40,051 nt of DNA, from the NCBI RefSeq assembly GCF_014230055.1, contig NZ_JACHVA010000133.1, positions 1-40,051 on the forward strand. Reading direction: 5' to 3'. The notes below the pieces were generated by a model. That model ran no database searches. It was given only the letters and a program-made list of their open reading frames with translations, and was not told where the DNA came from. Each line of letters begins with the position of its first letter. Position 1 is the stretch's first letter. This DNA comes from Puniceicoccus vermicola. GTDB lineage: Bacteria; Verrucomicrobiota; Verrucomicrobiia; Opitutales; Puniceicoccaceae. This document shows, piece after piece, positions 11,513 through 26,571 of the stretch. A program made the translations under genes and the position numbers.

Positions 11513-12172
11513 ATGATGAAAGTAGTCCAATGCTGGGATGACGGAGTGAACGACGACATCCGTCTGATCGAAATTTTGCGGAAGCACGAGGCCAAGGCTT
11601 CTTTCAATCTCAATCCAGCGACTCACGGTGATGTGCGCGAGGGTTGGTTTAGCGAGAAATGGAATAAGAAGATTGATCGGCTAGCCCGGTCAGAGCTCGA
11701 GTCCGTTTATGAGGGGTTCACGATTGCCAATCACTCCATGAGCCACCCCTTCCCCCTAAAAATCCCTCTCGACGATTGGCGCCGGGAAGTCATCGACGCC
11801 CGCAAGATTCTCCAGGATTGGTTTCAGGATCCTATTCACGGCTTTGTCTATCCCTACGGCCATCATGATCCGGCCACGGCCGATGTCGTTCGAGAAGCCG
11901 GTCACGTCTACGCCCGGACCACATTAAACGCGACTCCCTGCTACCCTCCGGCTGATCCGATGATGTTTCACGCCGACTGCCACTTCCACCATCCGGAGTT
12001 CTGGGAACGCTACTCGGCCGCAAAGGCCTCTGATTGCGGCGTCTTTTATTTCTGGGGACACAGCTTCGAAATCTGCACCGAAGAACAGTGGCAGGAATTC
12101 GATAGTCAGATTGCGCGGATCACTCAGGATTCCGACGTAGTTTGGGCAGAGCTACCTGAACTGTTTCTGTAA
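11513..12172 (+). CDS. Polysaccharide deacetylase (NodB/CE4-like)
   Basis: This 219-residue protein has the NodB-homology motifs. The metal-binding and catalytic Asp pair is VVQCWDDGVND near the N-terminus. The zinc-binding H-x3-H is NHSMSHP at about 75-81. The third motif appears as FVYPYGHHDPAT. A late GHSFEI supplies a plausible catalytic His. CE4 enzymes remove acetyl groups from amino sugars or xylan. The protein has no signal peptide, unlike most secreted members, so it may act on intracellular oligosaccharides. ATG 11513 (or 11516) is preferred over 11474 because the motif region begins immediately. Its last 28 codons and about 100 bases downstream are repeated at 12360-12544. Confidence 0.85.
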   Translation: MMKVVQCWDDGVNDDIRLIEILRKHEAKASFNLNPATHGDVREGWFSEKWNKKIDRLARSELESVYEGFTIANHSMSHPFPLKIPLDDWRREVIDARKILQDWFQDPIHGFVYPYGHHDPATADVVREAGHVYARTTLNATPCYPPADPMMFHADCHFHHPEFWERYSAAKASDCGVFYFWGHSFEICTEEQWQEFDSQIARITQDSDVVWAELPELFL

Positions 12173-13014
12173 GGGGTGCCCAGGAGAAACGCGTCTGGAC
12201 TCGCACTGGGGAGAACTACGCAGGAGAGAACGCGGACGACGCTTGAGAGAGCTGGAAGCTCTCACTACTTTGAGAGAACCCTTGCTTTCTAGGGGGGGCG
12301 GTGACTTCAATGAGTCTTCTACTTTTGGGGATGAAGCCGCGAAATATGTCCCGAGCAATAGTGGCGGGAATTCGATAATCAGATTGCGCGGATCACTCAG
12401 GATCCCGGCGTCGTTTGGGCAGAGCTACCTGAACTGTTTCTGTAAGGGGCAGCCAGGTGTGACGCGTCTGAACTCGCGCTGGGGAGAGCTACGCAGGAGA
12501 GAATACGGACGACGCTTGAGAGAGCTGGAAGCTCTCACTACTTTATCCCGTTCCAACGTAGGGGAGTAGCTTCAGCTGCCCCCCCGCGGACGATCGGCTA
12601 TTCCCCTCATTTCAGTACCACTTGCAAAGTCGGAACCGGCCAGCTTCGCGCACGACACACGAGAGAGCCGCTCCTGCGTGAGAGAGCTGGAAGCTCTCAC
12701 TACTTTATCCCCGTTCCAACGTAGGGGAGTAGCTTCAGCTGCCCCCCCGCGGACGATCGGCTAATTCCCTCATTTCAGACGAGAGAGCCGCTCCTGCGTG
12801 AGAGAGCTGGAAGCTCTCACTACTTTATCCCCGTTCCAACGTAGGGGAGTAGCTTCAGCTGCCCCCCCGCGGAGGATCGGCTATTTTCCTCATTTCAGCA
12901 CCACTTGCAAAGTCGGAACCGGCCAGCTTCGCGCACGGCGCACGAGAGAGCCGCTCCTGCGTGAGAGAGCTGGAAGCTCTCACTACTTTGAATACATCCT
13001 AGGGTTTCGGCTCT
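12173..13014. repeat. Array of GAGAGCTGGAAGCTCTC hairpins
   Basis: The palindrome GAGAGCTGGAAGCTCTC followed by ACTACTTT occurs at about 12247, 12520, 12682, 12802 and 12965. The spacings are 273, 162, 120 and 163 bp. Between copies lies a second module, GGGGAGTAGCTTCAGCTGCCCCCCCGCGG, given here as its core AGTAGCTTCAGCTGCCCC, in three near-identical copies, plus a CCACTTGCAAAGTCGGAACC module that is missing from the 120-bp spacer. The array lies between convergent genes (deacetylase and SGNH hydrolase). Apart from the deacetylase fragment no coding sequence is supported. Confidence 0.75.
12360..12445 (+). pseudogene. Duplicated 3' end of the polysaccharide deacetylase gene
   Basis: These 86 bases repeat the last 28 codons of the upstream gene at an offset of 273 bp, with the reading frame and TAA stop intact. 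The encoded tail is WREFDNQIARITQDPGVVWAEL, shortened here to its middle: DNQIARITQDPGVVW versus DSQIARITQDSDVVW in the intact gene. Changes are few and the similarity continues past the stop to about 12544. No start or catalytic domain is attached, so this is a gene fragment left by tandem duplication or by recombination between paralogues. Confidence 0.75.
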
Positions 13015-14058
13015 CTAGGGAGCGGCAACTTCAGCGCTGACCGTGACAAACTCGGAGACCGTTTCCTTGGCAATTTCCTGAAGGGAGGTCTTTTGCTCTT
13101 CGGTCATGCCTTTGGGCGCAAAAGTCACAGTAGTTGGATCGATACCGAAGAAGAACTCATTCCAAATGAGTCCACCGAGATATTCACCATTCTGATTGGC
13201 GTGAAAACCATCATTTCCGACATACCACTCCCCTTCCTTATTCTTTCTCCAAAAGAAAACATTGTGAAGACTCTTGCTCTGGTCTGGAAGGTTGTCCTTA
13301 TCCTCGGGATAGACCAACGTTTTCACATCGATATCGGTCGCTTCATAATCCCAGACGGGTGATTCCTTGGCATTCTGAAAAGCCGTTCCCACCGGAATGA
13401 GCTTCAATCCATATTCCTCCGCAACCTGGGTATAAGCGGCATGGAGCTTTTCGTACATCTCTTTTGGATCGAGCCCCCAATCCGTATACCGATAACTATC
13501 GATGCTGTGCGGCCAAGTCTCGTGAATGACGATCTCGGCGTCCGGTGCATACTGATGGATGTAATCAATCAGCTTTTCCGCGTATGGATAGTAAGTCTCG
13601 ATCTTGTAGCTCTTGGTGCTGACCTGCTGGATGGTCACATAGTCCCAAATGCCGTCCTGCAACATTTCCTTCAGGGAAACGTTCTTCTGGATCGTTTTCC
13701 CATTCATGTTGTAAGAATACTTCTTCCCATCTTCGGGATTGGCTTCATGCGCTTCGGCCAATTTCACGTGTTTATCCAAAGGGCACCCGCCGATGTAGGC
13801 ATAAGCGACATCGGCCTCGACCGACGGCTCCGAAGCGACGATCTGAGGAAGGAACCGCATCGCATTGCGAGTAAAACTGTTCCCGACCCCGAGGATCCGG
13901 ATCTTTCCGTCATCCCCTTCGGCACTGACGGAAGATACGAGCACCGCCAGGAGAAGAACAGACGCGACCGCCGCACTCGAAGAACGGAACGAAACCTTCA
14001 CGAAAGGTCTGAGTAGGCGAAACAGAATGGAACAATCAGGAGAAGCGTTCGATGACAT
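13015..14058 (-). CDS. SGNH-type hydrolase, DUF4886-like, exported
   Basis: This 347-residue protein starts at the ATG at 14058, just before a long signal sequence (SSSAAVASVLLLAVLVSSVSA). The nucleophile block is ILGVGNSFTRNAM, placing the catalytic Ser in GNSF. Further blocks are YIGGCPLDKH, YVTIQQVS, VIHETWPHS and a C-terminal GNDGFHANQNGEYLGG holding the Asp-x-x-His pair. This order matches DUF4886/SGNH hydrolases often found in carbohydrate-utilisation loci, probably removing ester groups such as acetyl from polysaccharides. The exact substrate cannot be read. Its 3' end touches the repeat array, and it has its own upstream gap of 110 bases with no copy of the palindrome found at the neighbouring promoters. 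Confidence 0.8.
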   Translation of the reverse strand: MSSNASPDCSILFRLLRPFVKVSFRSSSAAVASVLLLAVLVSSVSAEGDDGKIRILGVGNSFTRNAMRFLPQIVASEPSVEADVAYAYIGGCPLDKHVKLAEAHEANPEDGKKYSYNMNGKTIQKNVSLKEMLQDGIWDYVTIQQVSTKSYKIETYYPYAEKLIDYIHQYAPDAEIVIHETWPHSIDSYRYTDWGLDPKEMYEKLHAAYTQVAEEYGLKLIPVGTAFQNAKESPVWDYEATDIDVKTLVYPEDKDNLPDQSKSLHNVFFWRKNKEGEWYVGNDGFHANQNGEYLGGLIWNEFFFGIDPTTVTFAPKGMTEEQKTSLQEIAKETVSEFVTVSAEVAAP

Positions 14059-14168
14059 AGGCCCCGCAGTTTTCACGGAACCGTCGAACCGGGCCAGAAA
14101 AATTTCCAGCAATGTCGGCTAAGAGAAGCTGCTAATTCGATCGATCAGATTCTCTGATGGCAGAAATT

Positions 14169-14188: not shown

Positions 14189-16012
14189 TTATGCTTTCTC
14201 AGGAAAGGTTTCTTTCTGAGAAAACTCCCGAGTCACGACCTCAAAGACCGGCTTTTTTTCACCATTCGGTCCAACCAGCCCCTTTCGATTCCAACCCTTC
14301 TGGAACCCATTCGCCCGCAGAGTGCTCCGGAAATCCTTAAGGGCCCACGGAGTCCAACCGCTGAGCTCACGGCAGCGTCCGAAAAGCGCGATCTGCTCTT
14401 CGTAAATGGCTTTCTGACTATCCAGATTCCAAAGTTCGTCCTCTTTTCCCGAGACTCCGAGCGGTCCTGCCGCTCCAAATTCCGTCACGAAGAGAGGCTT
14501 ACTTCCCACGACAATATTCGCCTCGGGAAGTTCCTGCAGGGGGGGACTATACCAGCCCCCATATTCATTCAGGCCCACTACATCGACAAACTCGTAGATC
14601 GAGTGGTCGACTGATTCCACATCATAGGCTTTCCCAGAATAGGGAGCATTGAAGGCGGCCGTACTGGGAATTCCCGGATCCATTTTCTTAATTGCCCGAA
14701 AGGCTTGCCCCATCGTCGACTTGCGCCCCGGCCGATCCCAAGTCTCGTTGGCCAAGGCATGGCAGAGGATACAAGGATGCCCTCGGCTCCCCTCCACCAT
14801 CCGCACAGCCAGATCATAGATCAACCTCTTCGTCCTCTCATCTTTGTAAGTGATCTCCCAATAAACGGGAATCTCATCCCAAACGAGAAGCCCCCGCTCG
14901 TCACACTCCTCGAGCCATTGCTCGTCGTAAGGATAGTGAGCGAGACGCAGGAAATTGCAGCCCGTTTCCTGTGCCAAATCGATGAGTTTACGAATATCCC
15001 GCGGGCTGCGCGGTTTGCCTCCTTGCGCACCGAGCCTTTCTTCATGCAGTGCGATTCCTTTCAGATAGAAAGGTTTGCGGTTCACTCGTAGCTCCGTGCC
15101 CTCCCACTCTACCTGCTTAAACCCAATTTTTTGCGCAATTGAATCCATCACCTCGCCTCCTTTCAGGAGCGTCACCTGAGCCTGATACAGGCGTGGGGAG
15201 CCGGGCTCCCATAGTTCAACCGCGAGATCCTTCAACTTCAGCCGCATCCCGCGCTTGGTTACCTTCTTCTCACGAAAGAAACCAATTTCAGGAATCTCGA
15301 TCCTGAGCATGCACTCTGATAGGTCCTCCCCTCCGTCGATGAAAAGCGAACACTTACCCTCGACAGTCGCACCGGAGCGATTCATCTCCAAGATTTGGGT
15401 TTGATGATAGGAAGCCTCACGAATAAACGTCTGCGGGGTGGAGACCAACCGGACGGACCGAATCAGTCCGCCGTAATTAAACCAGTCGTAGCGCTCGGAG
15501 GGGATTCGATGCGCCAGGCGTCGGGCGTCCACTCGGATCACCAGCAAATTTTCTTCTTTCAGCTTCTCTGGATTGATTTCGAACGAAAGTGGCAGAAACG
15601 GCATCTCAGCAGAACCGATCGGCTCCCCATTCCACCAAACATCGACGGCGTAATTCACTCCATCCAGCCGAAGAAAGACTCGTCCCTCATTCTGCCAAGC
15701 TTCAAGCTCCTTAGCGGTCAGCTTCACCCGCTTGGCATACCAGCCGAATCCCTCAAATAAGAGATACTCCTTTTCCTGCGTATTCCAATCTCCGGGGACC
15801 GAGATCTCGGAAAAGGCATCTACGTCGTACTCGATGGCTCGGTTGTCGAGTTTGGGATTCAACCCTTCGAAAACGTTTCGGCTCCTCTTGAGGCCAAAGG
15901 CTCCCATATTATCCGCGAAAAATCCCCATTTACCATCCAGCGAATAGCTCGGCCGGTCATTCAATTGGAGGTAACCCGCGTCTTTGGCGGAATTGCGTTT
16001 TTTATCTTTCAT
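14189..16012 (-). CDS. Glycoside hydrolase family 2 (beta-glucuronidase-like), cytoplasmic
   Basis: This 607-residue protein has the three GH2 domains. A sugar-binding jelly roll spans about 20-200 (SVPGDWN, VFLRLDGVNYAVDVWWNG, DWFNYGGLIR). An immunoglobulin-like domain spans about 200-300, and the TIM barrel runs from about 300. The acid/base is E423 in ANETW and the nucleophile E511 in LFVTEFGAAG. The length and the LNEYGGWYS block recall beta-glucuronidases, but beta-galactosidase or another exo-activity is possible. There is no signal peptide, so it should act on imported oligosaccharides. It is the last gene of an operon: 6 bases after the secreted unknown, which follows the pseudopilin by 9 bases. 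Confidence 0.92.
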   Translation of the reverse strand: MKDKKRNSAKDAGYLQLNDRPSYSLDGKWGFFADNMGAFGLKRSRNVFEGLNPKLDNRAIEYDVDAFSEISVPGDWNTQEKEYLLFEGFGWYAKRVKLTAKELEAWQNEGRVFLRLDGVNYAVDVWWNGEPIGSAEMPFLPLSFEINPEKLKEENLLVIRVDARRLAHRIPSERYDWFNYGGLIRSVRLVSTPQTFIREASYHQTQILEMNRSGATVEGKCSLFIDGGEDLSECMLRIEIPEIGFFREKKVTKRGMRLKLKDLAVELWEPGSPRLYQAQVTLLKGGEVMDSIAQKIGFKQVEWEGTELRVNRKPFYLKGIALHEERLGAQGGKPRSPRDIRKLIDLAQETGCNFLRLAHYPYDEQWLEECDERGLLVWDEIPVYWEITYKDERTKRLIYDLAVRMVEGSRGHPCILCHALANETWDRPGRKSTMGQAFRAIKKMDPGIPSTAAFNAPYSGKAYDVESVDHSIYEFVDVVGLNEYGGWYSPPLQELPEANIVVGSKPLFVTEFGAAGPLGVSGKEDELWNLDSQKAIYEEQIALFGRCRELSGWTPWALKDFRSTLRANGFQKGWNRKGLVGPNGEKKPVFEVVTREFSQKETFPEKA

Positions 16013-16018
16013 CGAGAC

Positions 16019-16714
16019 CTAATAATAAACCTGCTTCACATCAATGCGGTCATCATCATCCAACTCCTTCGTGATGAAAACCAAAGCCGAGCGCCCTGAA
16101 CGGACAGACCAGGAAGAAGAGTACGCCACCTTCAAATCATCAGGTTTCTCACTCACCTGAATCGCCATAGCGATCCTCTGTCCACCCGATTCAGGAATGT
16201 CGGTCTGAATCGTGTTTTCATCGCGGGGTGAGATTTTGAACCGCTCTTCCCCGAACTTCACATACACGGGGTATTCGGAAAGATTGATGAAACGATACTG
16301 ATTACGCTCGGCTCCGTCGCGGGAAAAGGGAACCGGAAAGATGCGGTAGGATACGGAGTCATCGCTTGGGTTTTCTACGAAAATGAGCAACTGCTCTTCT
16401 CCCGAAGTCGGACGAAATACCGCCGCGGTCTGCTCGATCGGATTCCCGAGGTCATCCTGACCCAGCACTCGGTAAAACCGAATCGGAAACGTTCCCCGAT
16501 ATTCGTTTGCGATCGAGGGAGCTCCATTGGGAATACGAAGCGAGAATTCCTCCCCATCGACATTCCGATAGAAGAGATCGCCGATGTATCGACTCCAACT
16601 CATGGTCGTGAATTTAAAATTCCGGACCTCATCGGACTGAGCGTTCAGCGAAGGGATTGCTAGAGGTCCACCCGTCACGAGAAGAACCAAGAGGAAAAAA
16701 ATTGGACGCGTCAT
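16019..16714 (-). CDS. Secreted protein of unknown function, partner of the pseudopilin
   Basis: This 231-residue protein has a clear signal peptide (PIFFLLVLLVTGGPLAIPSLNAQ, cleaved after LNA). The mature part looks all-beta, with short strands such as FSLRIPNG, QLLIFVENPS, YRFINLSEYPVYVKFG and SALVFITKELDDDDR. I recognise no family. It sits between the giant pseudopilin-like gene (9 bases) and the GH2 gene (6 bases), so it is almost certainly co-transcribed and may be an accessory or surface subunit working with the pseudopilin. That role is inferred from gene order only. Confidence 0.65.
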   Translation of the reverse strand: MTRPIFFLLVLLVTGGPLAIPSLNAQSDEVRNFKFTTMSWSRYIGDLFYRNVDGEEFSLRIPNGAPSIANEYRGTFPIRFYRVLGQDDLGNPIEQTAAVFRPTSGEEQLLIFVENPSDDSVSYRIFPVPFSRDGAERNQYRFINLSEYPVYVKFGEERFKISPRDENTIQTDIPESGGQRIAMAIQVSEKPDDLKVAYSSSWSVRSGRSALVFITKELDDDDRIDVKQVYY

Positions 16715-16723
16715 AAGTGAAAT

Positions 16724-19700
16724 CTAAATAGCATTGTCTTCGGACCAAGAGAACGAAACGACCTTGAATTTCCGCCCGAAGGGACTTGCGGGGAGGATAA
16801 AATCATCCATGTCCGCATCGGTAATGGTCCCCCCAGCAAAATCGGCAGGATCGGGAATCCGCTGAACAACCGCCTCGCACCAAACCCGGGAGGTAACGGA
16901 ATCGTTGATCGGGTTCACCACGTCTCCGTAAGCCCTGATTTTAAAGGTATCCGATCGCACGGTAAGAAGAGGAGCTAACTTCTGAAGAATGTCGCCCTGG
17001 AGAAGGTGACCCGGAAAACCCATACTGCTATGATCGTTCGCGGAAAGATTCTCATCCATCAAATTTTGAAATTCATCAAAGCTCACGACGACCTCGCCAT
17101 CGATATCTTCATTCGTAAAATCATTCAGTCCATTGTTCTGATCCAAAGCGGCTTGAAGAGCTCCCTTTTTGGCCCGCTCCGTATTGTTCAGCTCGCGATT
17201 AACGAAGGACGCAAGGGAGAGAAATGGACCTCGTTCCTTGATCTGATCGACGACGGCTTCCGCCAGGCTGGCAACCTCGCTTTCCGAAAGACTTCTAAAT
17301 CCCGCCCAATATTCTGGAGCGGTGGAAGCGTCACTGGAATCGAAACGGCCGCGGGAGTTCTGTTCGAACCGCGAATAAATCATCCCGGTTTCCAGAGAGG
17401 TCGAGTCGGCATCCGCTAGCTCTCCGTAGGTTGGAATCCGCAAATTAAAGGAACTTCCGAGAATCGCTTTCCAGGCTTCCAGAGAGGTCGAATTCACATT
17501 AAAAGCTCCGTTTACCCACATCTGAGACGCCGGCCGATAAACTGCGTTCTCAAAGCCTTGAGCAGAGGAATCGTCGACAATAATCTCGCCATAGCGCACC
17601 CCGTCCTGAACTTCGGAATCGATGAATTCCATTCGTGGGTTCAGAACCACGTCATCCAATGAGATCGATCCTCCGTTCAAGCCGTTAACGATGCCATCGC
17701 GTTCACTCTGATCATCTGGAATTCTCAAAGAGGAGAAGAAGAAACCATCCCAAAGGCGCTCGTTCACTCGATACGACCAATCGAAGAGCTTGAGACCGGA
17801 GACTCCTCCGTAATCTTCCACCTCGGTCGCGGAGAGCGGAATACGAAGAGATGCATAAGAGTTTCCGACAATATAGGAAGGATCGAATTGGTAGCGCCCA
17901 AGATTTGCGTGCTGCAACTGACCGAGCGATAGCAAGGGAGACCGGGGACGGTCGAAGAGGACAACCCGGAGATCTCCATCGCTCCCGATGCTGCTCCCCC
18001 AAAAACCTTGCTGCACCCCGTTGCTCGCCTGAATGGATTGAGGCGCGGCGCTGTTTCCGTTGATCACCCCACCCGAATAGGAAACCAAAAAAGGCCCTAG
18101 GTCAGAGGGGCTATCTCCGTCCCAATCGACGTCCCGATAAATCGCCCGAATATTCGTATCAAGGACGTTACGAATGTCATCATTTGCCACTGCATCATCT
18201 CCCTCATCGGCAGTGCGCAGGAAGAGAGAGATTGTTTGGAGACTATCCTGAGCAGAGGCAAATCCAAGCGAGGAAAAATAATTGTTGTAAGTAGCTAAAG
18301 GAGACGAGGCGCCGGGCTTCCAGAGATCCTGAGTTTGTTGGAAGGTTCGCTCCTTCGTCTTGGAATCGTAATAGAGTTTCATGGCTCCTGACTCCTCATA
18401 AGCTATGGAGATTGAAACGTCAGTCGTGTCTTTCTCCTGAACCGCTTTAGTGACTGCATCCCGTTCGCTCTGAGTCAGGCCCCATCTCGGATCGGAAGTG
18501 GGATCGTTGCCTGGGGCAATGTCTTCGAGAGAAACGGGTCCTCGTGTCGAAGCTACCGGCCCAAAGTTATCTCCATTGGGATAAGTGCCATTCAGCGGGA
18601 AACCCAATTCGCCGACTGAGTCCCAAGCTCGATCCAGCTTGTTGCTCTCGGCTTTGTCTCCCCTCTTCCCGTTGGGATCTAAATTTTCCTTTTTGCCATC
18701 TTTTGCTTCCGAAAAGCCGTCAAACGCCTGAAGCACGGTCTGACCGGGCCGGATGGTCGTACTGTCAAACTTCACGGAAAAATCGGCTCCGCTTCCCCTC
18801 GGGTAGACCTCAGCCTGATAGAACTCAACCGTCTCCGAGGAACCGTCCTCATAGCCAAAACTCAGTGTGATCTTTGGATTCAGCTGCCAAGAGAGCCCGG
18901 CATCCCCCAGTTCAATTCCCGTGTTGTAAGGATTGTAAATGCCAAAAACAGGAAGCAGCGTCAGGTAAAGAACTTCAGAGCCCCCGGAATAACGCTCGGA
19001 TCGAACCCGCAAGCCATGGGAAAAACGAATCTGCGAAATCAAGGGGGTAATCCAGCTCGTGAACTGATAACCGTCATATTCTGGGATTTGCGCAGTCCGG
19101 TCCGCTTGATAAGGAAGGATATCCCCTGAATGTGGCGAGGACTGAAGGTAGCCCGATCTCTCTAAATAGGGTAAATACTTATACTGACGGGTGCCGTTGG
19201 TGGACTCCTCTTCCCGACTCAATCGGATCCGGTGGACCTGTTCCTGCCCATCAACGGCGTCACGATAATGCTGATAATAGTCTCGCAATACCGCCCAATT
19301 GGGAGCTCCGCTCACGATCACTGAATCTTCAGCGAAGAAATAAGGCTCTGGACTCCTCGGATTCGCCGCCTCGTTCTCCGCTTCCGTTTCACTGGAATAG
19401 CGCTGATTCGGAAAGTGCTCGTCGAACGAGGCGTCAATCTCGAAGGCTTGGGTCAGGTCGCGTCGCAGCCCGCCGTTTTTGGCATCGGTCAACAGACCTT
19501 TCGAAAAGGTCGTAAGATCCCGCTCGCGAGCCAAACGAAACTCCTCTTCGTCCGGAACAGAGGTATCAATCCAGTTCGTGAAATCAGAGCCGAGGATGGC
19601 CAGTCGATCCAGCTTGGGTTCGTTAATCGGATAATCTCCCAAACGGTCAAGCGTCTCGATCCCGTTCCGTTGAGGAACGAGGAAAGATTGGCGAACCTCC

Positions 19701-20371
19701 TCAAAATCACTGGACCCATCGTTCGGATCTCGCAGATTTACCAAAGCCTTTTCGTTCTCCCCACTGACGTAATAGGCATAGTGACCCTGTCTCTGCCCAG
19801 CAGCATCCTCCAGTGAGACTTTCTTGGCAGTTATCCCGGGGATTGAAAAGTTCTCAACCTCCGGCTCGAGCTGGATCGCATCTTCCCCCAAGTCGGACAA
19901 CGGAGTGAGATAGTTTGGGTCGGTTGGCTTGAGCCCTTCATTTCCGCTGACGAGCCACCTTGCCGACTCCAGTCGAGCCTGGCTCGCGAGCGAACTCCAA
20001 TTCGCAATATCCGAATCCCAAATCCCTTCCCAATGAGGATTTTCCATCGAAGTCTCCGAAACTCCACCCGTGCCTGTAAAAATATCGGCCCGAGCCGTCG
20101 CCCGCTGATCCGGACCCGCCAAACGCTGCAACTCACCGATGCCAATCATCACGCTCAGATAAGCGTTTTGCCGAGCCGAAACCTGCTGCCTCTTATCTTG
20201 AGCTGACGCCTGTTCCACACTCGTCAGACTCATGAGTGCGACGAGAATCAGAATGATGAACGCCATCAAGGCAAGAGCGATGATGAGAGCAAATCCGTGA
20301 TCCTGGGCACCCGAGAATTGGGGTCTGGGCCAAAATCGCCGATCTACGGTGCTAGAACGATGTGGGGTCAT
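16724..20371 (-). CDS. Giant pseudopilin-like protein (GspK/PilX-type or Verru_Chthon cassette A-like N-terminus)
   Basis: This 1215-residue protein begins with a basic 26-residue leader ending QDHG, then FALIIALALMAFIILILVAL. That is a type III (prepilin) signal, with predicted cleavage between G26 and F27. Position +5 of the mature protein is Ile31, not the usual Glu; loss of Glu5 is typical of the GspK minor pseudopilin. Next comes a polar coiled stretch (SVEQASAQDKRQQVSARQNAY), then over 1,100 residues of Asp/Ser-rich, probably beta-rich sequence with no domain I can name. Large prepilin-like proteins of this kind are known in Verrucomicrobiota (Verru_Chthon cassette protein A). It leads the operon with a secreted unknown and GH2, and an 18-bp palindrome lies 92 bases upstream. 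Confidence 0.7.
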   Translation of the reverse strand: MTPHRSSTVDRRFWPRPQFSGAQDHGFALIIALALMAFIILILVALMSLTSVEQASAQDKRQQVSARQNAYLSVMIGIGELQRLAGPDQRATARADIFTGTGGVSETSMENPHWEGIWDSDIANWSSLASQARLESARWLVSGNEGLKPTDPNYLTPLSDLGEDAIQLEPEVENFSIPGITAKKVSLEDAAGQRQGHYAYYVSGENEKALVNLRDPNDGSSDFEEVRQSFLVPQRNGIETLDRLGDYPINEPKLDRLAILGSDFTNWIDTSVPDEEEFRLARERDLTTFSKGLLTDAKNGGLRRDLTQAFEIDASFDEHFPNQRYSSETEAENEAANPRSPEPYFFAEDSVIVSGAPNWAVLRDYYQHYRDAVDGQEQVHRIRLSREEESTNGTRQYKYLPYLERSGYLQSSPHSGDILPYQADRTAQIPEYDGYQFTSWITPLISQIRFSHGLRVRSERYSGGSEVLYLTLLPVFGIYNPYNTGIELGDAGLSWQLNPKITLSFGYEDGSSETVEFYQAEVYPRGSGADFSVKFDSTTIRPGQTVLQAFDGFSEAKDGKKENLDPNGKRGDKAESNKLDRAWDSVGELGFPLNGTYPNGDNFGPVASTRGPVSLEDIAPGNDPTSDPRWGLTQSERDAVTKAVQEKDTTDVSISIAYEESGAMKLYYDSKTKERTFQQTQDLWKPGASSPLATYNNYFSSLGFASAQDSLQTISLFLRTADEGDDAVANDDIRNVLDTNIRAIYRDVDWDGDSPSDLGPFLVSYSGGVINGNSAAPQSIQASNGVQQGFWGSSIGSDGDLRVVLFDRPRSPLLSLGQLQHANLGRYQFDPSYIVGNSYASLRIPLSATEVEDYGGVSGLKLFDWSYRVNERLWDGFFFSSLRIPDDQSERDGIVNGLNGGSISLDDVVLNPRMEFIDSEVQDGVRYGEIIVDDSSAQGFENAVYRPASQMWVNGAFNVNSTSLEAWKAILGSSFNLRIPTYGELADADSTSLETGMIYSRFEQNSRGRFDSSDASTAPEYWAGFRSLSESEVASLAEAVVDQIKERGPFLSLASFVNRELNNTERAKKGALQAALDQNNGLNDFTNEDIDGEVVVSFDEFQNLMDENLSANDHSSMGFPGHLLQGDILQKLAPLLTVRSDTFKIRAYGDVVNPINDSVTSRVWCEAVVQRIPDPADFAGGTITDADMDDFILPASPFGRKFKVVSFSWSEDNAI

Positions 20372-20463
20372 GAGATCTGGGGGGCACCACCTTCCGGTGG
20401 AAAGAGTAGGAATGAGAACTATTTAGAGAATACTTCTAAAAATAAGTGAGTAAAATCGCGAAT

Positions 20464-20481
20464 AGGTTAAGCTATTATCCT
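20464..20481. promoter_or_regulatory. Predicted LacI-family operator, pseudopilin-GH2 operon
   Basis: AGGTTAAGCTATTATCCT matches the consensus AGGTTAANCTATTAACCT with one change in the right arm. It lies 92 bases upstream of the pseudopilin start, in the gap after the beta-helix gene. Near-identical sites flank the beta-helix gene and the first lacI gene. Confidence 0.65.
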
Positions 20482-20519: not shown

Positions 20520-22673
20520 CTAGTCTTGCGGATGATAGTTTTCAGGAAACTCCGGCCACGTCATTGGCTTCTCGATGAGACTTCCCGTTTCGACCGCTCC
20601 TATGTCCGGCCCTTCGCCGACAAAATCATCATTAAAGTTCGGAATTCGTTCTCCTTGGTCAAATCCGGCAGTACCGGGACGGAGCCAGAGCCGTCCGTCG
20701 GTAGAGCGGTCGTAAACGGGGTCCGTGTGAATGCCATTCTCCTCCGCACCCGCCCGGACCATCAGCTGCCCAGTATAAAGGTCGTAGTCGTAATCATTGC
20801 TCGGAGTGAGCTGAGTATCCTTCACTGCCCAATCCGTTTCCTTCCGCATTTGAAAGATGTTGTTCCGGGAAGTGATGTTCTCCTGAAGCTTCTTGGGTGA
20901 GGTGAATACGATCCCAGACTGGGCTCCACTCGAGGGATCAGAAAACCCTTCGAAAGGCGGCGGTTGGAGCACCGTGTTGTGAAAAACAAAAATCTTTCCT
21001 TTCGTGAATTTCGGATTCTCATTTCCGATTTTCACCAAGTAGTGACCTCGATAGTCATTCGGATCGGTCCCGTGATGCTTCTGGGACACTCCATAGACAT
21101 TTCGGAAATAGTAAACCGGTCCGAGCGATGTTGAGGCTGAACCAATTGCACCGTAAGTCGTGTCGATATAGTTATCCCAAACTCGGACATTCATATTCGC
21201 CCCTTCGATCTCCACACCATCGTCCCAACAATGTGAGACGAAATTTCCGTAGACATCGCTGTCCCGATTGGGAAATCCTCCATAACTCGAGTTCGAGAAT
21301 TCTCCCATCGAATCGTTAAACATGTGCTCCATGTCAGAGTAGAACCGATTGTATCGGACGATGTAATGACCCTGCCCATGCCGCAGAGTAATCCCCTGCG
21401 GACCTTGCGGATGCCGACTGCCAGTGCCGGGACGTTTTTCCTGCCAGGAATTACTATCGCTCCGGGGATGATGGATTTCGTTGTTCTGAATGATAATGGA
21501 TTCAAGCACCTTCGAATTGCTATAAATCGCCGAATTGATGTTCTCGGCCTGACCGTCTGGACCGGTCTTCCCCCAATTCGATAGATCACAATCTTCAATG
21601 ACGACATGCTGCACATCGCTGAGGACGATCCCGTGACGAATGGCTCCTGTCAGATTGAGTCCCCGAACAATGACCCAGGAAGCGTCCACCCTCAGGTTCG
21701 CTTCGGCCTGATTGTTCGCATCCCAAAAAACTTCCGAACCATCCTCCGGCTCGTAAAGAACGTATCCATCCTCTTCGCTCCCGCCCTCATCGATCACGTA
21801 GGTCCCATCATAGGTGGAAGGTAGCTTTACGGTTCTCGCAATCCGGAAATCTTCCGACAAGGTGGCAAAATCAATCGTGCGCTCGATACCGCCCTGGAGT
21901 TGCAAGCGGGCCTCATACTCCGTCCCGGAATCGAGATAGACAATGCTGCCGCGATATTCCGCGAAATGCTCTTCGGCGGACCCTGTGTGATGTGTCGTAT
22001 CAAACCAAAGCGGCAAGGCCTGCATCCACTCCGACTCCCCTTTCTTACGGTATTCGACCTCAACGGATCGGTTTGCGGTGCCACCGGTTGGTTTCCAGTA
22101 GAGGCCAACCGAATGAAAGGTCGGAACGGCGCGGGGTCCGACCTCAGCTCCTTCGTAGATCACCGGCGGCAACTCTTCGAGAACCACATTCCGGAAGGCA
22201 GCGATCTTGTTCAAAACATCTTCACTCTGTTTCCAACGCAGCAGAATCTCTGCATGGTCGGCACCTGAGCTCTGGAAAACCTTCGTCACCGAATTCCAAT
22301 CCGAACCTTTATTCTTCTTCGTGTTCGAGCGACTCATTTCCTTTCCATCGCGGTAAAGCTTCACCTGAATGAATGCCAAATCCTTTTTATCGGCCCGAAT
22401 GTCTGCAGTCACTCGATACCGCGCCTCCGGCGTCAAGGAGACACGCTGCAAGACTTCGCCGAGGCGCCCCGTGGCCTTGACAACTTTGACCTGCATTCCC
22501 CCGCCGTCCATTTGAGAGAATTGCTGGGGTGAGCGTACATTCCAATCCGCCGGACGACCCTCCGACCAACTGGAGAAGTCTCCGTTTTGAAGAAGGTTGG
22601 CACTATAAAGGTTAGAGGCCAAAAAAAGTAGCGCCATTGAGCGCCAAAGGGTCTGGGCGAGGGTTGGTGTCAT
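20520..22673 (-). CDS. Secreted CBM-like / right-handed beta-helix protein (putative polysaccharide lyase or hydrolase)
   Basis: This 717-residue exported protein starts at the ATG at 22673, where a signal peptide (MALLFLASNLYS) begins shortly after. An N-terminal CBM4/9-like jelly roll (about 25-165) opens with ANLLQNGDFSSWSEGRPADW. A fibronectin-III-like domain (about 175-275) contains RSVEVEYRKKGESEW. The rest is a right-handed parallel beta-helix with repeating coils such as WVIVRGLNLTGAIRHGIVL, VVIEDCDLSNWG, IIIQNNEIHH and NVRVWDNYI. Such helices occur in polysaccharide lyases, epimerases and some hydrolases; the catalytic residues cannot be named here. It is divergent from the lacI pair and shares a palindromic operator with it. 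Upstream in-frame starts would overlap the operator and are rejected. Confidence 0.8.
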   Translation of the reverse strand: MTPTLAQTLWRSMALLFLASNLYSANLLQNGDFSSWSEGRPADWNVRSPQQFSQMDGGGMQVKVVKATGRLGEVLQRVSLTPEARYRVTADIRADKKDLAFIQVKLYRDGKEMSRSNTKKNKGSDWNSVTKVFQSSGADHAEILLRWKQSEDVLNKIAAFRNVVLEELPPVIYEGAEVGPRAVPTFHSVGLYWKPTGGTANRSVEVEYRKKGESEWMQALPLWFDTTHHTGSAEEHFAEYRGSIVYLDSGTEYEARLQLQGGIERTIDFATLSEDFRIARTVKLPSTYDGTYVIDEGGSEEDGYVLYEPEDGSEVFWDANNQAEANLRVDASWVIVRGLNLTGAIRHGIVLSDVQHVVIEDCDLSNWGKTGPDGQAENINSAIYSNSKVLESIIIQNNEIHHPRSDSNSWQEKRPGTGSRHPQGPQGITLRHGQGHYIVRYNRFYSDMEHMFNDSMGEFSNSSYGGFPNRDSDVYGNFVSHCWDDGVEIEGANMNVRVWDNYIDTTYGAIGSASTSLGPVYYFRNVYGVSQKHHGTDPNDYRGHYLVKIGNENPKFTKGKIFVFHNTVLQPPPFEGFSDPSSGAQSGIVFTSPKKLQENITSRNNIFQMRKETDWAVKDTQLTPSNDYDYDLYTGQLMVRAGAEENGIHTDPVYDRSTDGRLWLRPGTAGFDQGERIPNFNDDFVGEGPDIGAVETGSLIEKPMTWPEFPENYHPQD

Positions 22674-22816
22674 AAAGGTAATAAATTGCGTGTCCCGGAT
22701 GAAAAGGGAAACGATTGAGGTAAAGTTTGCAACGAGCGGGATAAGTGTCTGCGGACCAATCGTGAACTCCGATGGAAAAACCTTCTTGGGTTTGCAGGAA
22801 ACTGCGAATCCGGCAT

Positions 22817-22834
22817 AGGTTAAACTATTAACCT
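22817..22834. promoter_or_regulatory. Predicted LacI-family operator between beta-helix and lacI genes
   Basis: AGGTTAAACTATTAACCT is a perfect 7-bp inverted repeat (AGGTTAA / TTAACCT) around ACTA. It ends 45 bases before the first lacI start and lies 144 bases before the beta-helix start, so it could serve autoregulation and control of the secreted enzyme. Confidence 0.75.
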
Positions 22835-22879
22835 TCTCCACTCAGTCTTCCTCATTCCAACTTCTTCAGAATCCTAAAC

Positions 22880-23890
22880 ATGAATATGAAAGAGCTCGCC
22901 TCGCTCTGCGGAGTCAGTGTTGCGACCGTCTCGTATGCTCTGCGAGACGATACCCGAGTCTCCGAGGCCGTGCGCAAACGCATCGCTCAAAAAGCCCGCG
23001 AGGTTGGATATAAGACCAATCCCCAGAATTCAGCGCTAGTCCGTTATCGGAAGGGTTCCAGCGATGCTCTTCGCCCCCCCACAATTGCCATAGTCTATGC
23101 CCACGGGAAAACATCCCGCCGGAGTCAGCTCATTCAGCCGCATATCAAGGTCCTACGCCGCACGGTCAAACCCTACGGCTACCGGCTCAAAGAGTTCTTC
23201 CTCGGATATAAACCTGACTCGCAAGAAGAGCTTCTCGCCCAACTTCGTCGGGAAGAAATTCGGGGAATCGTTCTCGGCTGGGGCGAATGGCAGGATCGAA
23301 TGGAGGGGTTTCCCTGGGAAGAATTTGCTGTGGTTTCTGCCGAGAGGAATCAGATCCATCCTTCATTGGACCGCATTAGCATGAACCACTTCAGCGCCAC
23401 TGATGAGGCATTTCAACAGCTGGAAGAGAGCAAAGTATCCCGCATTGGCTTGATCTGCCACACGGATCTCCCTCTACGGGTGCGCAAAAATATCATCGGT
23501 TCTTATCGGATGAACGTCCACCGCCGCGACCATTGGGCCTCCGATATCCCACCCTACTTCTACACTCTTGGGGAGTCCCCCGAAGATTTCTTAGAGTGGT
23601 TTTCCCAATACCAGCTCGACGCCATCCTCTCGCACCGGATCATTGATCTCACATTTTTTAAAGATGGGGGCATCCGCTTCCCGCAAGACGCCCAATACGC
23701 AGTGATCGAAATCGATGACGGCGGCAAAGGAGGAGAATCCGGCGTGATCGGCCGCGATGACCTCGGCCGCGTCCTCGCTGAGACGATCGCCGCAAAACTT
23801 CACTACGATGAGCGAGTCAATCCTGAGACCGAGGGAAATCTGATCCTCGTTGACGGATACTGGCACAACGGCAGCACCACCAGCCAATAG
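22880..23890 (+). CDS. LacI-family transcriptional regulator 1
   Basis: This 336-residue protein has an N-terminal LacI helix-turn-helix: MKELASLCGVSVATVSYALR, then RVSEAVRKRIAQKAREVGYKTNP with the hinge region. The effector domain follows from about residue 65 (periplasmic-binding-protein fold; GIVLGWGEW, SMNHFSATDEAF, GLICHTDLPLRVRKNIIGSY). In Verrucomicrobiota such regulators often control polysaccharide genes by binding oligosaccharides. ATG 22880 or 22886 is possible. The second LacI paralogue starts 16 bases after its stop, so both are probably on one transcript. A perfect palindrome just upstream suggests autoregulation. Confidence 0.93.
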   Translation: MNMKELASLCGVSVATVSYALRDDTRVSEAVRKRIAQKAREVGYKTNPQNSALVRYRKGSSDALRPPTIAIVYAHGKTSRRSQLIQPHIKVLRRTVKPYGYRLKEFFLGYKPDSQEELLAQLRREEIRGIVLGWGEWQDRMEGFPWEEFAVVSAERNQIHPSLDRISMNHFSATDEAFQQLEESKVSRIGLICHTDLPLRVRKNIIGSYRMNVHRRDHWASDIPPYFYTLGESPEDFLEWFSQYQLDAILSHRIIDLTFFKDGGIRFPQDAQYAVIEIDDGGKGGESGVIGRDDLGRVLAETIAAKLHYDERVNPETEGNLILVDGYWHNGSTTSQ

Positions 23891-23906: not shown

Positions 23907-24926
23907 ATGAGCACCCGCGTAACCCTGAAAACCATCGCCGAAGAATGCGGCGTCAGCACCGCCACCGTCTCCTATGCTCTGCGCCGCAGCAGTCGGATTC
24001 CCCAGTCGACCCGTGACCGGATCAGCAAGGTGGCGCAAGAACTCGGATATCGTCCCGACCCGAGCCTCTCATCGCTCGCCGCCCGCAAAAGCCGAGGGGT
24101 AAATGTTCCCTTCTACGCCTCCGTAGCCGTACTCCATCCCGACAATTCGGAATCGCGTGCTTCGCAGCTCTTCGCGACACACTGTCATCACTTCCGCGAG
24201 AAGATGCTCGAATTCGGCTGTTCAGTTTCCGACTTCGAGCTCGAGACGGATCACTACCGCACGGAACGAATCGCTCAGATACTCCAGACTCGAGGCATCA
24301 AGGGGATCCTCCTCGGCTGGGGGAAATGGCCCTCATCCATCCGCACATTTCCTTGGGATCAGTTCTCCGTCATCTCTACGGAGAGGACGGATCTCGGCCA
24401 GTCCGTCGACAAAGTCAGCATGAACCACTTTCACGCCCTCGACGATATTTTTGCCAAGCTGAGCAATCTTCCCTCCCGACGCTACGGCATGATCCTTCAC
24501 GACGATTGCCCCAAGACGACCCGCGAACACATCATCGGCGCGTTTCAGGCCAACCTCTTCGAGCGCCCCCATCTCAAAGGTGACGTCCCTCCCTACTCCT
24601 ACCATCTCGGGGAATCTGCGGACGGGATAAAAAAATGGTTTGAAACCTATCGTCCCGAAGTGGTGATCAGCCATCGCGTGATTGATCCCAACGTCTTTCA
24701 GGATGCTGGCATCCACTTCCCCGAAGTCCCGGTTATCGTCATTGAAATCGACGAGGAAAGCCCCGTTCAATTCTCTGGCTTTTACACCGAGGGTGAACTG
24801 GGAAGAACCGTCGCCACTCTCCTCGCCCGGAAAATCCGTAACGACGAAGTCCAGGAAACAATCCATCGCCCCCGGCTTACCCTCGTCAACGGCATTTGGC
24901 GCGACGGCGAGACACTAAGCATCTAA
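23907..24926 (+). CDS. LacI-family transcriptional regulator 2
   Basis: This 339-residue paralogue of the preceding gene has the HTH TLKTIAEECGVSTATVSYAL, followed by RIPQSTRDRISKVAQELGYRPDP. The effector domain matches regulator 1 block by block: GILLGWGKW against GIVLGWGEW, KVSMNHFHALDD against RISMNHFSATDE, and PPYSYHLGES against PPYFYTLGES. The pair therefore arose by tandem duplication. The recognition helices differ little (VSTATVSYALRRS versus VSVATVSYALRDD), so both may bind the same operators, perhaps as hetero-oligomers or with different ligands. ATG 23907 is chosen because the HTH follows at once. No separate palindrome is seen in the 16-base gap. Confidence 0.93.
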   Translation: MSTRVTLKTIAEECGVSTATVSYALRRSSRIPQSTRDRISKVAQELGYRPDPSLSSLAARKSRGVNVPFYASVAVLHPDNSESRASQLFATHCHHFREKMLEFGCSVSDFELETDHYRTERIAQILQTRGIKGILLGWGKWPSSIRTFPWDQFSVISTERTDLGQSVDKVSMNHFHALDDIFAKLSNLPSRRYGMILHDDCPKTTREHIIGAFQANLFERPHLKGDVPPYSYHLGESADGIKKWFETYRPEVVISHRVIDPNVFQDAGIHFPEVPVIVIEIDEESPVQFSGFYTEGELGRTVATLLARKIRNDEVQETIHRPRLTLVNGIWRDGETLSI

Positions 24927-25146: not shown

Positions 25147-26571
25147 TCAGACCTCAGAAGTCTTCTGGGAAAGCTCTCCGGTCTTCTCCCCGAAATACTC
25201 GAGAGCCATCAGCTCTTCCTCGACGGAGAGAATCTGGGTGCGCATGATACTCGGCGAATACAAAGATCGCTGATCAGCAATACCCGCGGCCTGCATGGCT
25301 TTTTCGAGCGAAGTATTGGCCTTCTTCAGGTCTTCAATACTCTCCTGCACATTGAATCGGCCAGGTGAGGTCGGCGCGGGAGGCCAACGGGAATCGGAAA
25401 CATAGGCCGAGGTCACTTCCCGCCGAGCCTGATCCACCCAACGGGCAGCCTCCGAGCCCTCTTCAAACTCATCCTTCAGGCGCTGGACTCCTTGAAAGAC
25501 CGCCATACAAACCGGATCCAGCACCCGGGCATGGGAGGTATTCAACCAGGCACGGGCCGTTCCACCATGCCAAGCGCTTCCTCTCTCGATTGTGGAAATC
25601 TGATTCTTCGATAGTTCGATGACCTCCGAACCTTCAATTAGCTCGGAGGGCGTCGCGAACTCGAAACCGCACTCGGAGGCCGTCTTGAGGAGCGCCTCAA
25701 AGCGATCCACGCTTTCCGGCTCATGCTCGAAAAAGCGGGCATGCCCAAACTGCTTCACATAAAAGTACGCACTTGTACCAATGTACTCGGCATCCTCCGC
25801 GTAAGGGATGATAAAGCTCCCCGATCCTTCCACTTTTGTCTTCCAAAAGCTTAACAATTCCTGGATCTCCGAAAGCGCTACAGGTTGGTCACGGGTGCCC
25901 TCGGTCGCTCCCATCAGATACCACAGCATCGGGTTGGCAAAGAAATCGACGCGGAAAAGGAGATTCAAACCGGAAGGCGTGCGCGAAACGTTGGTCAGGA
26001 AACGGTGATACTGCGGCTTGTCCTTAATATACTCGGCAATCCGGAACAACTTACTCTTATTGCTGTGACCGCGAACATCGTAGTCCAGACCCGTGGCTTC
26101 ACGAATTTCCGGAAAACTCAGGAAGAACGAATCACCATCCATCACGAGAGAGTCAAAACCCGCTTCCTGAAAAATCTCCGGAAGGAAATCCGCCCAGCTG
26201 CACTCTGGGTTCCAGCCCAGACGCGGACGGTGTCCCGTATATTTTTCCCAAGCGTCAAGACCGTCTTTCAAGCTAGCTAGACCCATTTCCGGGGGTAAGT
26301 TAGCCAGCATGATATGGGTAAAGGGAGAGCCAACTCCTTCGACCTGGCCCGCGTCCATCAACGCCTTCAATTGCTCAAGAACCTTGGGCCGGGTTTCGGC
26401 CATTACTTTCAATGTTTCTCCCGACGCCTCAAATCCGATCTTTATCCCGTTCTTCTCGACGAGGTCGAACAACGGGGCATAAGACTGATCGATGACCCAA
26501 GGGCGGCGGGCAGGATCCAACTGGCTATACTGAAGATTACCATGGGGAAGAAACAGGATTTTTGATTTCAT
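25147..26571 (-). CDS. Glycoside hydrolase family 57-like enzyme, cytoplasmic
   Basis: This 474-residue protein carries GH57 landmarks. The N-terminal strand is FLPHGNLQYSQL with His10. The nucleophile block is GWNPECSWADFLPEIF, with E123 the likely nucleophile. The fourth region is IIPYAEDAEYIG, with D260 the likely acid/base. GH57 enzymes act on alpha-glucosidic or alpha-galactosidic bonds by a retaining mechanism. The barrel is short and the C-terminal 140 residues are helical (REVTSAY, EDLKKANTSLEKAM), so this is a divergent subgroup whose substrate is unclear. There is no signal peptide. ATG 26571 is used because GH57 sequence begins directly. It is divergent from the Gfo/Idh/MocA gene, with a predicted operator between them. 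Confidence 0.8.
   Translation of the reverse strand: MKSKILFLPHGNLQYSQLDPARRPWVIDQSYAPLFDLVEKNGIKIGFEASGETLKVMAETRPKVLEQLKALMDAGQVEGVGSPFTHIMLANLPPEMGLASLKDGLDAWEKYTGHRPRLGWNPECSWADFLPEIFQEAGFDSLVMDGDSFFLSFPEIREATGLDYDVRGHSNKSKLFRIAEYIKDKPQYHRFLTNVSRTPSGLNLLFRVDFFANPMLWYLMGATEGTRDQPVALSEIQELLSFWKTKVEGSGSFIIPYAEDAEYIGTSAYFYVKQFGHARFFEHEPESVDRFEALLKTASECGFEFATPSELIEGSEVIELSKNQISTIERGSAWHGGTARAWLNTSHARVLDPVCMAVFQGVQRLKDEFEEGSEAARWVDQARREVTSAYVSDSRWPPAPTSPGRFNVQESIEDLKKANTSLEKAMQAAGIADQRSLYSPSIMRTQILSVEEELMALEYFGEKTGELSQKTSEV

Follow-up and report, generated by a model that had tools for sequence, protein, structure and literature searches.

A giant GspK-type prepilin-like protein with a conserved partner in Puniceicoccus vermicola and its possible part in polysaccharide capture

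Introduction

In type II secretion, GspK caps the pseudopilus at its tip. The gene for Verru_Chthon cassette protein A stands next to genes B, C, and D in tandem, and SusD of Bacteroidota is a locus-specific surface protein that is repeated across carbohydrate loci and encoded as a pair. Here, we compare with these systems a 1215-residue protein of Puniceicoccus vermicola, the "giant," together with the secreted-looking protein encoded directly behind it, the "partner." Both genes lie in the first 40,051 nucleotides of contig NZ_JACHVA010000133.1 (assembly GCF_014230055.1, forward strand), the whole stretch of DNA that was analyzed and that we call the window. The giant is very probably a GspK-type protein of unusual size that is present in many copies and accompanied by a conserved partner. 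We put the probability that the pair serves substrate-specific capture on a type IV pilus with an Amuc_1098-type secretin at about one half.

Several described filaments provide further points of reference. ComZ of Thermus thermophilus, a pilin of GspK-like fold that contains an inserted domain, has been proposed as the DNA receptor at the tip of the competence pilus, and it binds the product of a neighboring gene, according to the accessible part of the source (PMC6561018). In the portion available of a work on modular pilins, such proteins are described as common, with a bulky module probably placed at the filament tip, and lectin-like modules are reported (PMC8179133). For the Amuc_1099-1102 (MUL2) pilus of Akkermansiaceae, a role in glycan attachment was predicted, and uptake of fucoidan was shown (PMC13174399). 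Verruconatronum alginivorum has 67 pulG-like pseudopilin homologs, one of them in an alginate-induced operon, as stated in the accessible part of its description (PMC13274419). A characterized example of the giant had not been known to the original prediction made for this DNA, and none was found in the literature searched, most papers of which were screened without full text; under "Verru_Chthon cassette" this literature held nothing.

Among the questions raised by Verrucomicrobiota, including Akkermansia, is how they capture and take in mucin and large sulfated polysaccharides; the P. vermicola genome has no SusD match.

Results

Prepilin signature and GspK-like fold of the giant

As originally described, three open reading frames (ORFs) follow each other on the minus strand, with gaps of 9 and 6 bases between them:

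16724..20371, minus strand: giant GspK-like prepilin, 1215 aa (ORF list, N-terminus, structure model)
between 20294 and 20293, minus strand: predicted cleavage of the giant at G26/F27
16019..16714, minus strand: partner, secreted-looking 231-aa protein, predicted all-beta; its homologs adjoin most giants
14189..16012, minus strand: GH2 glycoside hydrolase, 607 aa (Pfam PF02836 at 4e-19, PF02837 at 2e-11)

The N-terminus of the giant, ...AQDHG^FALIIALALMAFIILILVALMSLTSVEQ, contains a G26/F27 cleavage motif with Ile at position +5, so that processing would leave a mature protein without the Glu at this position. In the P. vermicola genome, all 28 visible giant N-termini have the G^F motif and no Glu at +5, and the complete giants have mature lengths of 1020 to 1271 residues. 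Among the relatives from named loci, Glu5 was absent from 67/67 parsed N-termini, while 13 of 80 escaped the motif expression.

Family models recognized the protein poorly. Two NCBIfam models matched, both at the N-terminus only: that for GspK (NF037980) scored 10.8 bits, where its cut-off is 130, and that for Verru_Chthon cassette protein A (TIGR02600) scored 24 bits, where its cut-off is 332.3, restricted to residues 26-84. The latter model matched 6/27 paralogs at E<=1e-3 and exceeded its cut-off at 0/25 places in the P. vermicola genome, where all matches to PF03934 (T2SSK) also remained under their cut-off. The best Pfam match of the giant had an E value of 0.18, and a profile of the giants searched against PDB sequences returned no GspK but only DNA polymerase III (E 3.5).

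Structure was more informative. An AlphaFold model of the giant built from 68 sequences (pLDDT 87.9, pTM 0.89) begins with an N-terminal helix spanning mature residues 2-60. When 990 of the 1000 best Foldseek chains were realigned with VIA, the best four PDB chains were all GspK, at Z 10.4-10.8, and the next row followed at Z 5.2. These chains were 5vtm_X (Z 10.8, 221 residues aligned), 6utu_C (Z 10.7, 219), 9a1f_T (Z 10.4, 256 of 295), and 3ci0_K (Z 10.4, 238 of 280). Their alignment ranges reach both ends of the model, leaving most of the giant's middle as extra sequence. Foldseek itself matched the giant weakly (3ci0_K at rank 8, E 0.14), which could stem from a domain split by a long insert. 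We therefore base the GspK assignment on VIA together with the operon position of relatives (see below). Both the model and short relatives show that an extra domain is present on a GspK-like pilin fold. Within this region, an Ig-like part at about 413-681 reached only Z 5.2 in VIA (lamin) and was not used.

Column conservation in the two alignments reaches 0.54-0.65 at 1-50, 1001-1050, and 1101-1150 but only 0.13-0.35 across 351-750; the segment 751-850, within the insert, is fairly conserved (0.41-0.50). The original description of a Glu5-less, GspK-type prepilin-like protein is thus upheld by the fold and by the N-termini encoded in its own genome.

The giant is amplified and paired with its partner

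When the giant was used as query against the P. vermicola genome (5.2 Mb in 143 contigs), 78 pieces matched. Genes were called in 29 neighborhoods, yielding 30 matches including the window; four matches are halves at contig ends and count as two genes, which makes 28 loci, one of them (L030) with a truncated giant in a 453-codon frame. Directly behind the giant, 24 loci encode a secreted-looking partner homolog of about 220-280 aa, which ranked first in 24/24 leave-one-out profile searches with 275 background proteins (E 9e-57 to 2e-21). At L032 the partner lies upstream of the giant and is the 25th, so that 25/28 loci are paired; the partner is missing at L025, L034, and L030, the locus with the truncated giant.

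A contig scan with the single giant protein found no relative, whereas a scan with alignment A1 found at least 571 among 587 stretches. Of these relatives, 80 named loci were kept, with 85 giant ORFs (3 at edges), including loci from Cerasicoccus, Coraliomargarita, Puniceicoccaceae, Rubritalea, Luteolibacter, Akkermansiaceae metagenome-assembled genomes (MAGs), and Kiritimatiellota B12222. The partner was the next gene at 71 of the 82 giants away from edges, and three of the 11 partnerless giants are followed by a gap of 0.8-1.2 kb in which the gene was possibly missed. Distances among giants and among partners correlated, with Pearson coefficients of 0.68 (23 own pairs) and 0.75 (52 pairs) and 0/2000 permutations each; the partner may bind the giant.

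The partner had no Pfam or NCBIfam family at E<=1, and its own-genome family of 24 members had none below 0.14. Its model (pLDDT 90.7) is all beta, with the extracellular domain of PepT1/PepT2 as best fold (Foldseek E 7e-7; VIA Z 9.7-12.1). In its second half, it resembled HGSNAT, cytolysin domain 4, AlgF, and transthyretin, all at Z 7-10. Since these four score alike, the fold of this half says little, and none of the resemblances points to a function.

Individual loci depart from the simple pair. In a Verrucomicrobiales MAG (L132, 1-15084), three giants with partners stand in tandem, and two short partner pieces follow the third. In genus g20 (L198, L199, and L200), two giants lie back to back near a gene that is CTP-synthase-like by eye; L198 has one weak partner match, and L199 has an unmatched 227-aa gene (4379-5062) that, by eye, resembles a partner gene. 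Genome G134 encodes an 812-aa form with neither partner nor prepilin operon (L208, 4163-6601). At L105 (9962-16325), giant and partner are followed on the same strand by genes for a 263-aa, an ExbD-like 148-aa, and a TonB-like 343-aa protein (by eye), a gene order that possibly links to outer-membrane energy transfer.

Carbohydrate surroundings of the giants

Carbohydrate surroundings had been predicted from the window alone, and the other copies in this genome bear this out. The neighbor set comprised 182 proteins, each 120 aa or longer and encoded no more than 6 kb from an own-genome giant; 14 of them matched the sulfatase family, 7 GDSL_2, 6 LacI, and 6 CBM9_1. Sulfatases numbered at most 1 of 133 in control proteins; the control stretches were hand-chosen and non-random, mostly contig starts, and 133/144 of their proteins were scanned (11 of L185 were dropped). 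PF07980 (SusD) had no match at E<=0.01 in the P. vermicola genome, with Bacteroides positive as control, and SusD was absent from the Pfam matches of 27 giants. The number of sulfatases was rejected as a predictor of giants, given several sulfatase-rich genomes without one.

Selfish duplication or hitch-hiking of the pair might also account for the copy number, with the carbohydrate context being the background of a genome rich in carbohydrate-active enzymes. The P. vermicola genome is indeed sulfatase-rich (68 loose candidates), giants are absent from several other genomes of the phylum with many sulfatases, genome G045 has just 7 candidate sulfatases alongside 19 candidate giants, and some giants stand among housekeeping-like genes. 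We nevertheless regard this explanation as very improbable in view of the sulfatase enrichment over controls, the fact that even divergent copies keep their reading frames open and their motifs conserved, and the operator common to the giant and a neighboring enzyme gene (see below). One divergent own-genome pair, perhaps an old copy, lies beside accB/accC-like genes (L048, 6218-9987; by eye).

The association of giant, partner, and GH2 enzyme did not recur. The window GH2 had four matches elsewhere, none behind a partner, in a BLAST search at 1e-15 covering own-genome and named loci, a search that a distant GH2 could escape, and we rejected the three-gene order as a conserved unit. The original prediction had made conservation of this gene order in relatives decisive; the order is absent as far as the GH2 gene is concerned and kept for the pair of giant and partner.

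Relatives at the K position and a possible origin of the giants

A clue to the ancestry came from f3, another family of the same order, of which ten genomes were inspected. In nine of them, the relative's gene stands directly behind a run of prepilin-like genes, which were recognized by eye from GFTLxE-type N-termini, some being called short and some J genes being uncalled. At L192, the genes of the run scored in turn as GspG, GspG, GspH, GspI/Verru_Chthon B, Verru_Chthon C, and GspK, with the K gene matching GspK at 2e-8 and Verru_Chthon A at 1e-5; all these scores are below cut-off, the generic prepilin domain excepted. Parts of such a run also scored in L202 and L209, and two named relatives (L114 and L140) have a Verru_Chthon D/GspH-like gene upstream.

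The nine operon-type genomes contain two forms of K. Four encode a short K (402-422 aa), without most of model positions 270-950, corresponding to residues of about 275-1082 of the mature giant of the window, and five encode a long K, one of 826 aa at a contig edge and the others of 962-1094 aa. None of the four short forms is followed by a partner, compared with three of the four long forms away from an edge. The tenth genome, G045, is the one with 19 giant candidates (such numbers come from a first look, with about five candidates scored in each genome); the one locus inspected in it, L212, has a partner and carbohydrate-type genes and no prepilin operon. This distribution suggests an order in which a K gene may have acquired the insert and the partner, and may then have become detached from its operon and multiplied, mostly into carbohydrate loci.

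The giants might instead be static surface adhesins or cell envelope scaffolds that use the N-terminal helix as an anchor and belong to no uptake or secretion machine. Their large size and the variable stretch 351-750 would fit, as would the near absence of GspG-J-type genes beside them: the 540 kb around the own-genome giants hold only two ORFs of the GFxxxE prepilin type, compared with one in 218 kb of control DNA, and in the window no prepilin gene was found by motif and no Verru_Chthon B, C, or D gene lies beside the giant. A plain anchor, though, would have no need of GspK-like ends, and the position of the relatives behind prepilin genes and the G/F motif in every visible own-genome N-terminus likewise make a purely structural role quite unlikely.

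Co-occurrence with secretins

Two kinds of machine come into question. The P. vermicola genome encodes a type II secretion system (T2SS) stretch with GspD, GspE, GspF, a 350-aa GspK, and a GspI/J-like prepilin, all below curated cut-offs. It also encodes a PilQ-type secretin, a cluster of the Amuc_1098/1100/1101 type, and one prepilin peptidase match. The same 144 Verrucomicrobiota genomes were searched for giants or K forms (E<=1e-10) and for the Amuc_1098-type secretin and GspD (E<=1e-60 each), which were found in 37, 95, and 112 genomes, respectively. The Amuc_1098-type secretin of P. vermicola itself reached 424 of 750 bits, and GspD and PilQ fell far outside the Amuc_1098 threshold.

Among the 37 giant-bearing genomes, 36 have the Amuc_1098-type secretin and 21 have GspD, while for the 107 giantless genomes the numbers are 59 and 91. 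Fisher tests, which ignore phylogeny, gave a positive association with Amuc_1098 (p 5e-7) and a negative one with GspD (p 1e-3). Counted by genus, all 18 genera with giants have Amuc_1098 and 16 have GspD. Within f3 (14 genomes), a contrast noticed after the fact is that the Amuc_1098-type secretin is present in 10/10 genomes with the gene and 0/4 without. In genome G108 (1.7 Mb), the giants at both inspected loci (L196 and L197) are fragmented, with in-frame stops.

These data bear on the proposal that the giants serve the type II pseudopilus as alternative GspK tips, each aiding export of the enzymes of its own locus. The GspK fold, the GspD, E, F, and K genes grouped with a GspI/J-like prepilin in one stretch of the P. 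vermicola genome, and the secreted appearance of many giant neighbors speak for it. On the other hand, GspD is missing at the threshold used from 16/37 giant-bearing genomes, including 14 of g20 and G116, the four f3 genomes lacking both giant and Amuc_1098-type secretin at these thresholds all have GspD, and the T2SS operon of P. vermicola already has a GspK of normal size. We consider such secretion tips rather unlikely. Of the original link to type II secretion, the GspK-type identity persists; the association with this system is weaker than that with the Amuc_1098-type pilus secretin.

The window locus

Additional features of the locus are as follows:

13015..14112, minus strand: DUF4886/GDSL-like protein, downstream of GH2; a 55% identical homolog lies three genes from the giant of L022
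20462..20477: copy 1 of the palindrome (ATAGGTTAAGCTATTA), in the upstream region of the giant
20520..22841, minus strand: weak CBM4_9 and right-handed beta-helix protein; true start probably near 22670 (ATG, by eye)
22815..22830: copy 2 of the palindrome (ATAGGTTAAACTATTA), upstream of two divergent genes, the beta-helix gene and the LacI gene
22880..23890, plus strand: LacI-family regulator, candidate reader of the palindrome
23907..24926 as called, longest ORF from 23850, plus strand: second LacI-family regulator
25147..26571, minus strand: 474-aa gene; an 82% identical homolog is next after the partner in Cerasicoccus arenae (L087)

The palindrome ATAGGTTAARCTATTA is exact at 20462-20477 and 22815-22830 and, as proposed originally, common to the promoters of the giant and the beta-helix gene; copy 2 counts as upstream of the latter only if translation starts at the ATG near 22670. 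Allowing up to 3 mismatches, three matches were found where 0.05 would be expected; one of the three is the first site read on the opposite strand. Its 14-base core has no exact copy among the 191 loci compared, two window pieces excepted, and thus looks like a local operator. A palindrome common to all giants was rejected, as far as exact core copies go.

No signal peptide is visible by eye in the GH2 protein. Homologs of the beta-helix protein lie two genes from the giant of L086 (64% identical) and adjoin that of L089 (61%); together with the homolog of the 474-aa gene, they indicate that parts of the window locus travel together. The intergenic region 12150-13000 is repetitive, with a 120-bp unit that occurs twice in tandem at 12659-12898 (97% match). 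Copies of 160 bases lie around 12547-12989, and a pair of 122-base copies (91%) is located at 12150 and 12423; some of the short ORFs of this region have similar translations.

Discussion

We propose that the giant would act as a GspK-type minor pilin with a very large insert, working with the partner encoded behind it. In some Verrucomicrobiota, this pair would have undergone repeated copying, with carbohydrate loci receiving most of the copies. Each locus may thereby encode a filament tip of its own that a local regulator turns on. The tip would most likely be mounted on the type IV pilus of the Amuc_1098 type, where it could capture a single class of polysaccharide at the cell surface and help to bring it to periplasmic enzymes. 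It is tempting to go a step further and to imagine dozens of locus-specific tips, each with its beta-sandwich partner, loading a single Amuc_1098-type pilus and pulling chosen polysaccharides into the periplasm in a SusCD-like role, a picture that we offer tentatively.

A number of observations weigh against capture by such a pilus, or against parts of the evidence for it. Five of the 13 unparsed named N-termini have Ser or Met in place of Phe, and one has Ala in place of Gly. The Pfam matches of giants and partners include no carbohydrate-binding domain, and the closest folds of the modeled partner give no pointer to glycan binding. The rank correlation of giant and partner distances is weak (Spearman 0.21 for the own pairs and 0.35 for the larger set). 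Carbohydrate genes also occur in the control DNA (two GH43, one GH1, and three Peripla_BP_3), and the giants in L048, L087, L107, and L207 stand among genes that look housekeeping-like by eye. The T2SS operon of P. vermicola has its own 350-aa GspK, so T2SS use is possible there, and the Amuc cluster (contig C53; L189, 20 kb read) contains no giant. Curated cut-offs were exceeded in only 14/144 genomes for Amuc_1098 and 36/144 for GspD, so that the counts depend on the threshold of E<=1e-60, and at that threshold 59/107 giantless genomes also have the Amuc_1098-type secretin. Fourteen of the 16 giant-bearing genomes without GspD belong to one genus, g20, and are all of its giant-bearing genomes. 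G108 is the sole giant-bearing genome without Amuc_1098; as it also lacks GspD, it is uninformative between the machines.

The pair is abundant and mostly locus-specific, has a pilus tip fold, and co-occurs with a pilus type implicated in glycan uptake, and it thus offers direct genetic targets. If the giants are exchangeable pilus tips, the pair would be a genetic marker of polysaccharide utilization loci, useful for finding such loci and for guessing their substrates.

Among known systems, GspK/XcpX is closest in build. Common to both are the prepilin N-terminus without Glu5 and the fold at both ends, and the giant's relatives take the K position behind G-G-H-I-J-like genes. The giant differs in being about four times longer and paired with a secreted partner, and in having 28 loci per genome, mostly without prepilin neighbors. 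With the Verru_Chthon cassette, it shares a match of its N-terminal 59 residues to protein A, and its relatives include giant or K forms behind genes matching D, B, and C, below cut-off; in contrast, only the N-terminus matches, no cassette surrounds the window gene, and the partner is unnamed in Pfam and NCBIfam. The likeness to SusD is one of role only, as a locus-specific protein repeated across carbohydrate loci and encoded in a pair, whereas neither the giants nor the P. vermicola genome match SusD itself.

Other comparisons concern filaments. Giants co-occur with the secretin of the MUL2 pilus, for which selfish uptake is described (PMC13174399), yet they lie outside its cluster, and neither giant GspK-like proteins nor the partner are mentioned in the main text of that work. 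The PulG-like set of V. alginivorum fits the theme and is set beside the giants by description only, as given in the available part of the source (PMC13274419). PilB of Streptococcus sanguinis likewise carries a bulky functional module on a pilin, but C-terminally appended rather than inserted as in the giant, and the portion available of the work on modular pilins describes no amplified family tied to carbohydrate loci (PMC8179133). The nearest parallel in function is ComZ, in which a GspK-like fold with a large insert is proposed to serve as a tip receptor in polymer uptake; there, going by the accessible part of the source, the insert is a beta-solenoid, the polymer is DNA, and the partner is a pilin (PMC6561018). 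As uptake receptors, the giants would join ComZ as another example of a GspK-like tip that has taken on this role.

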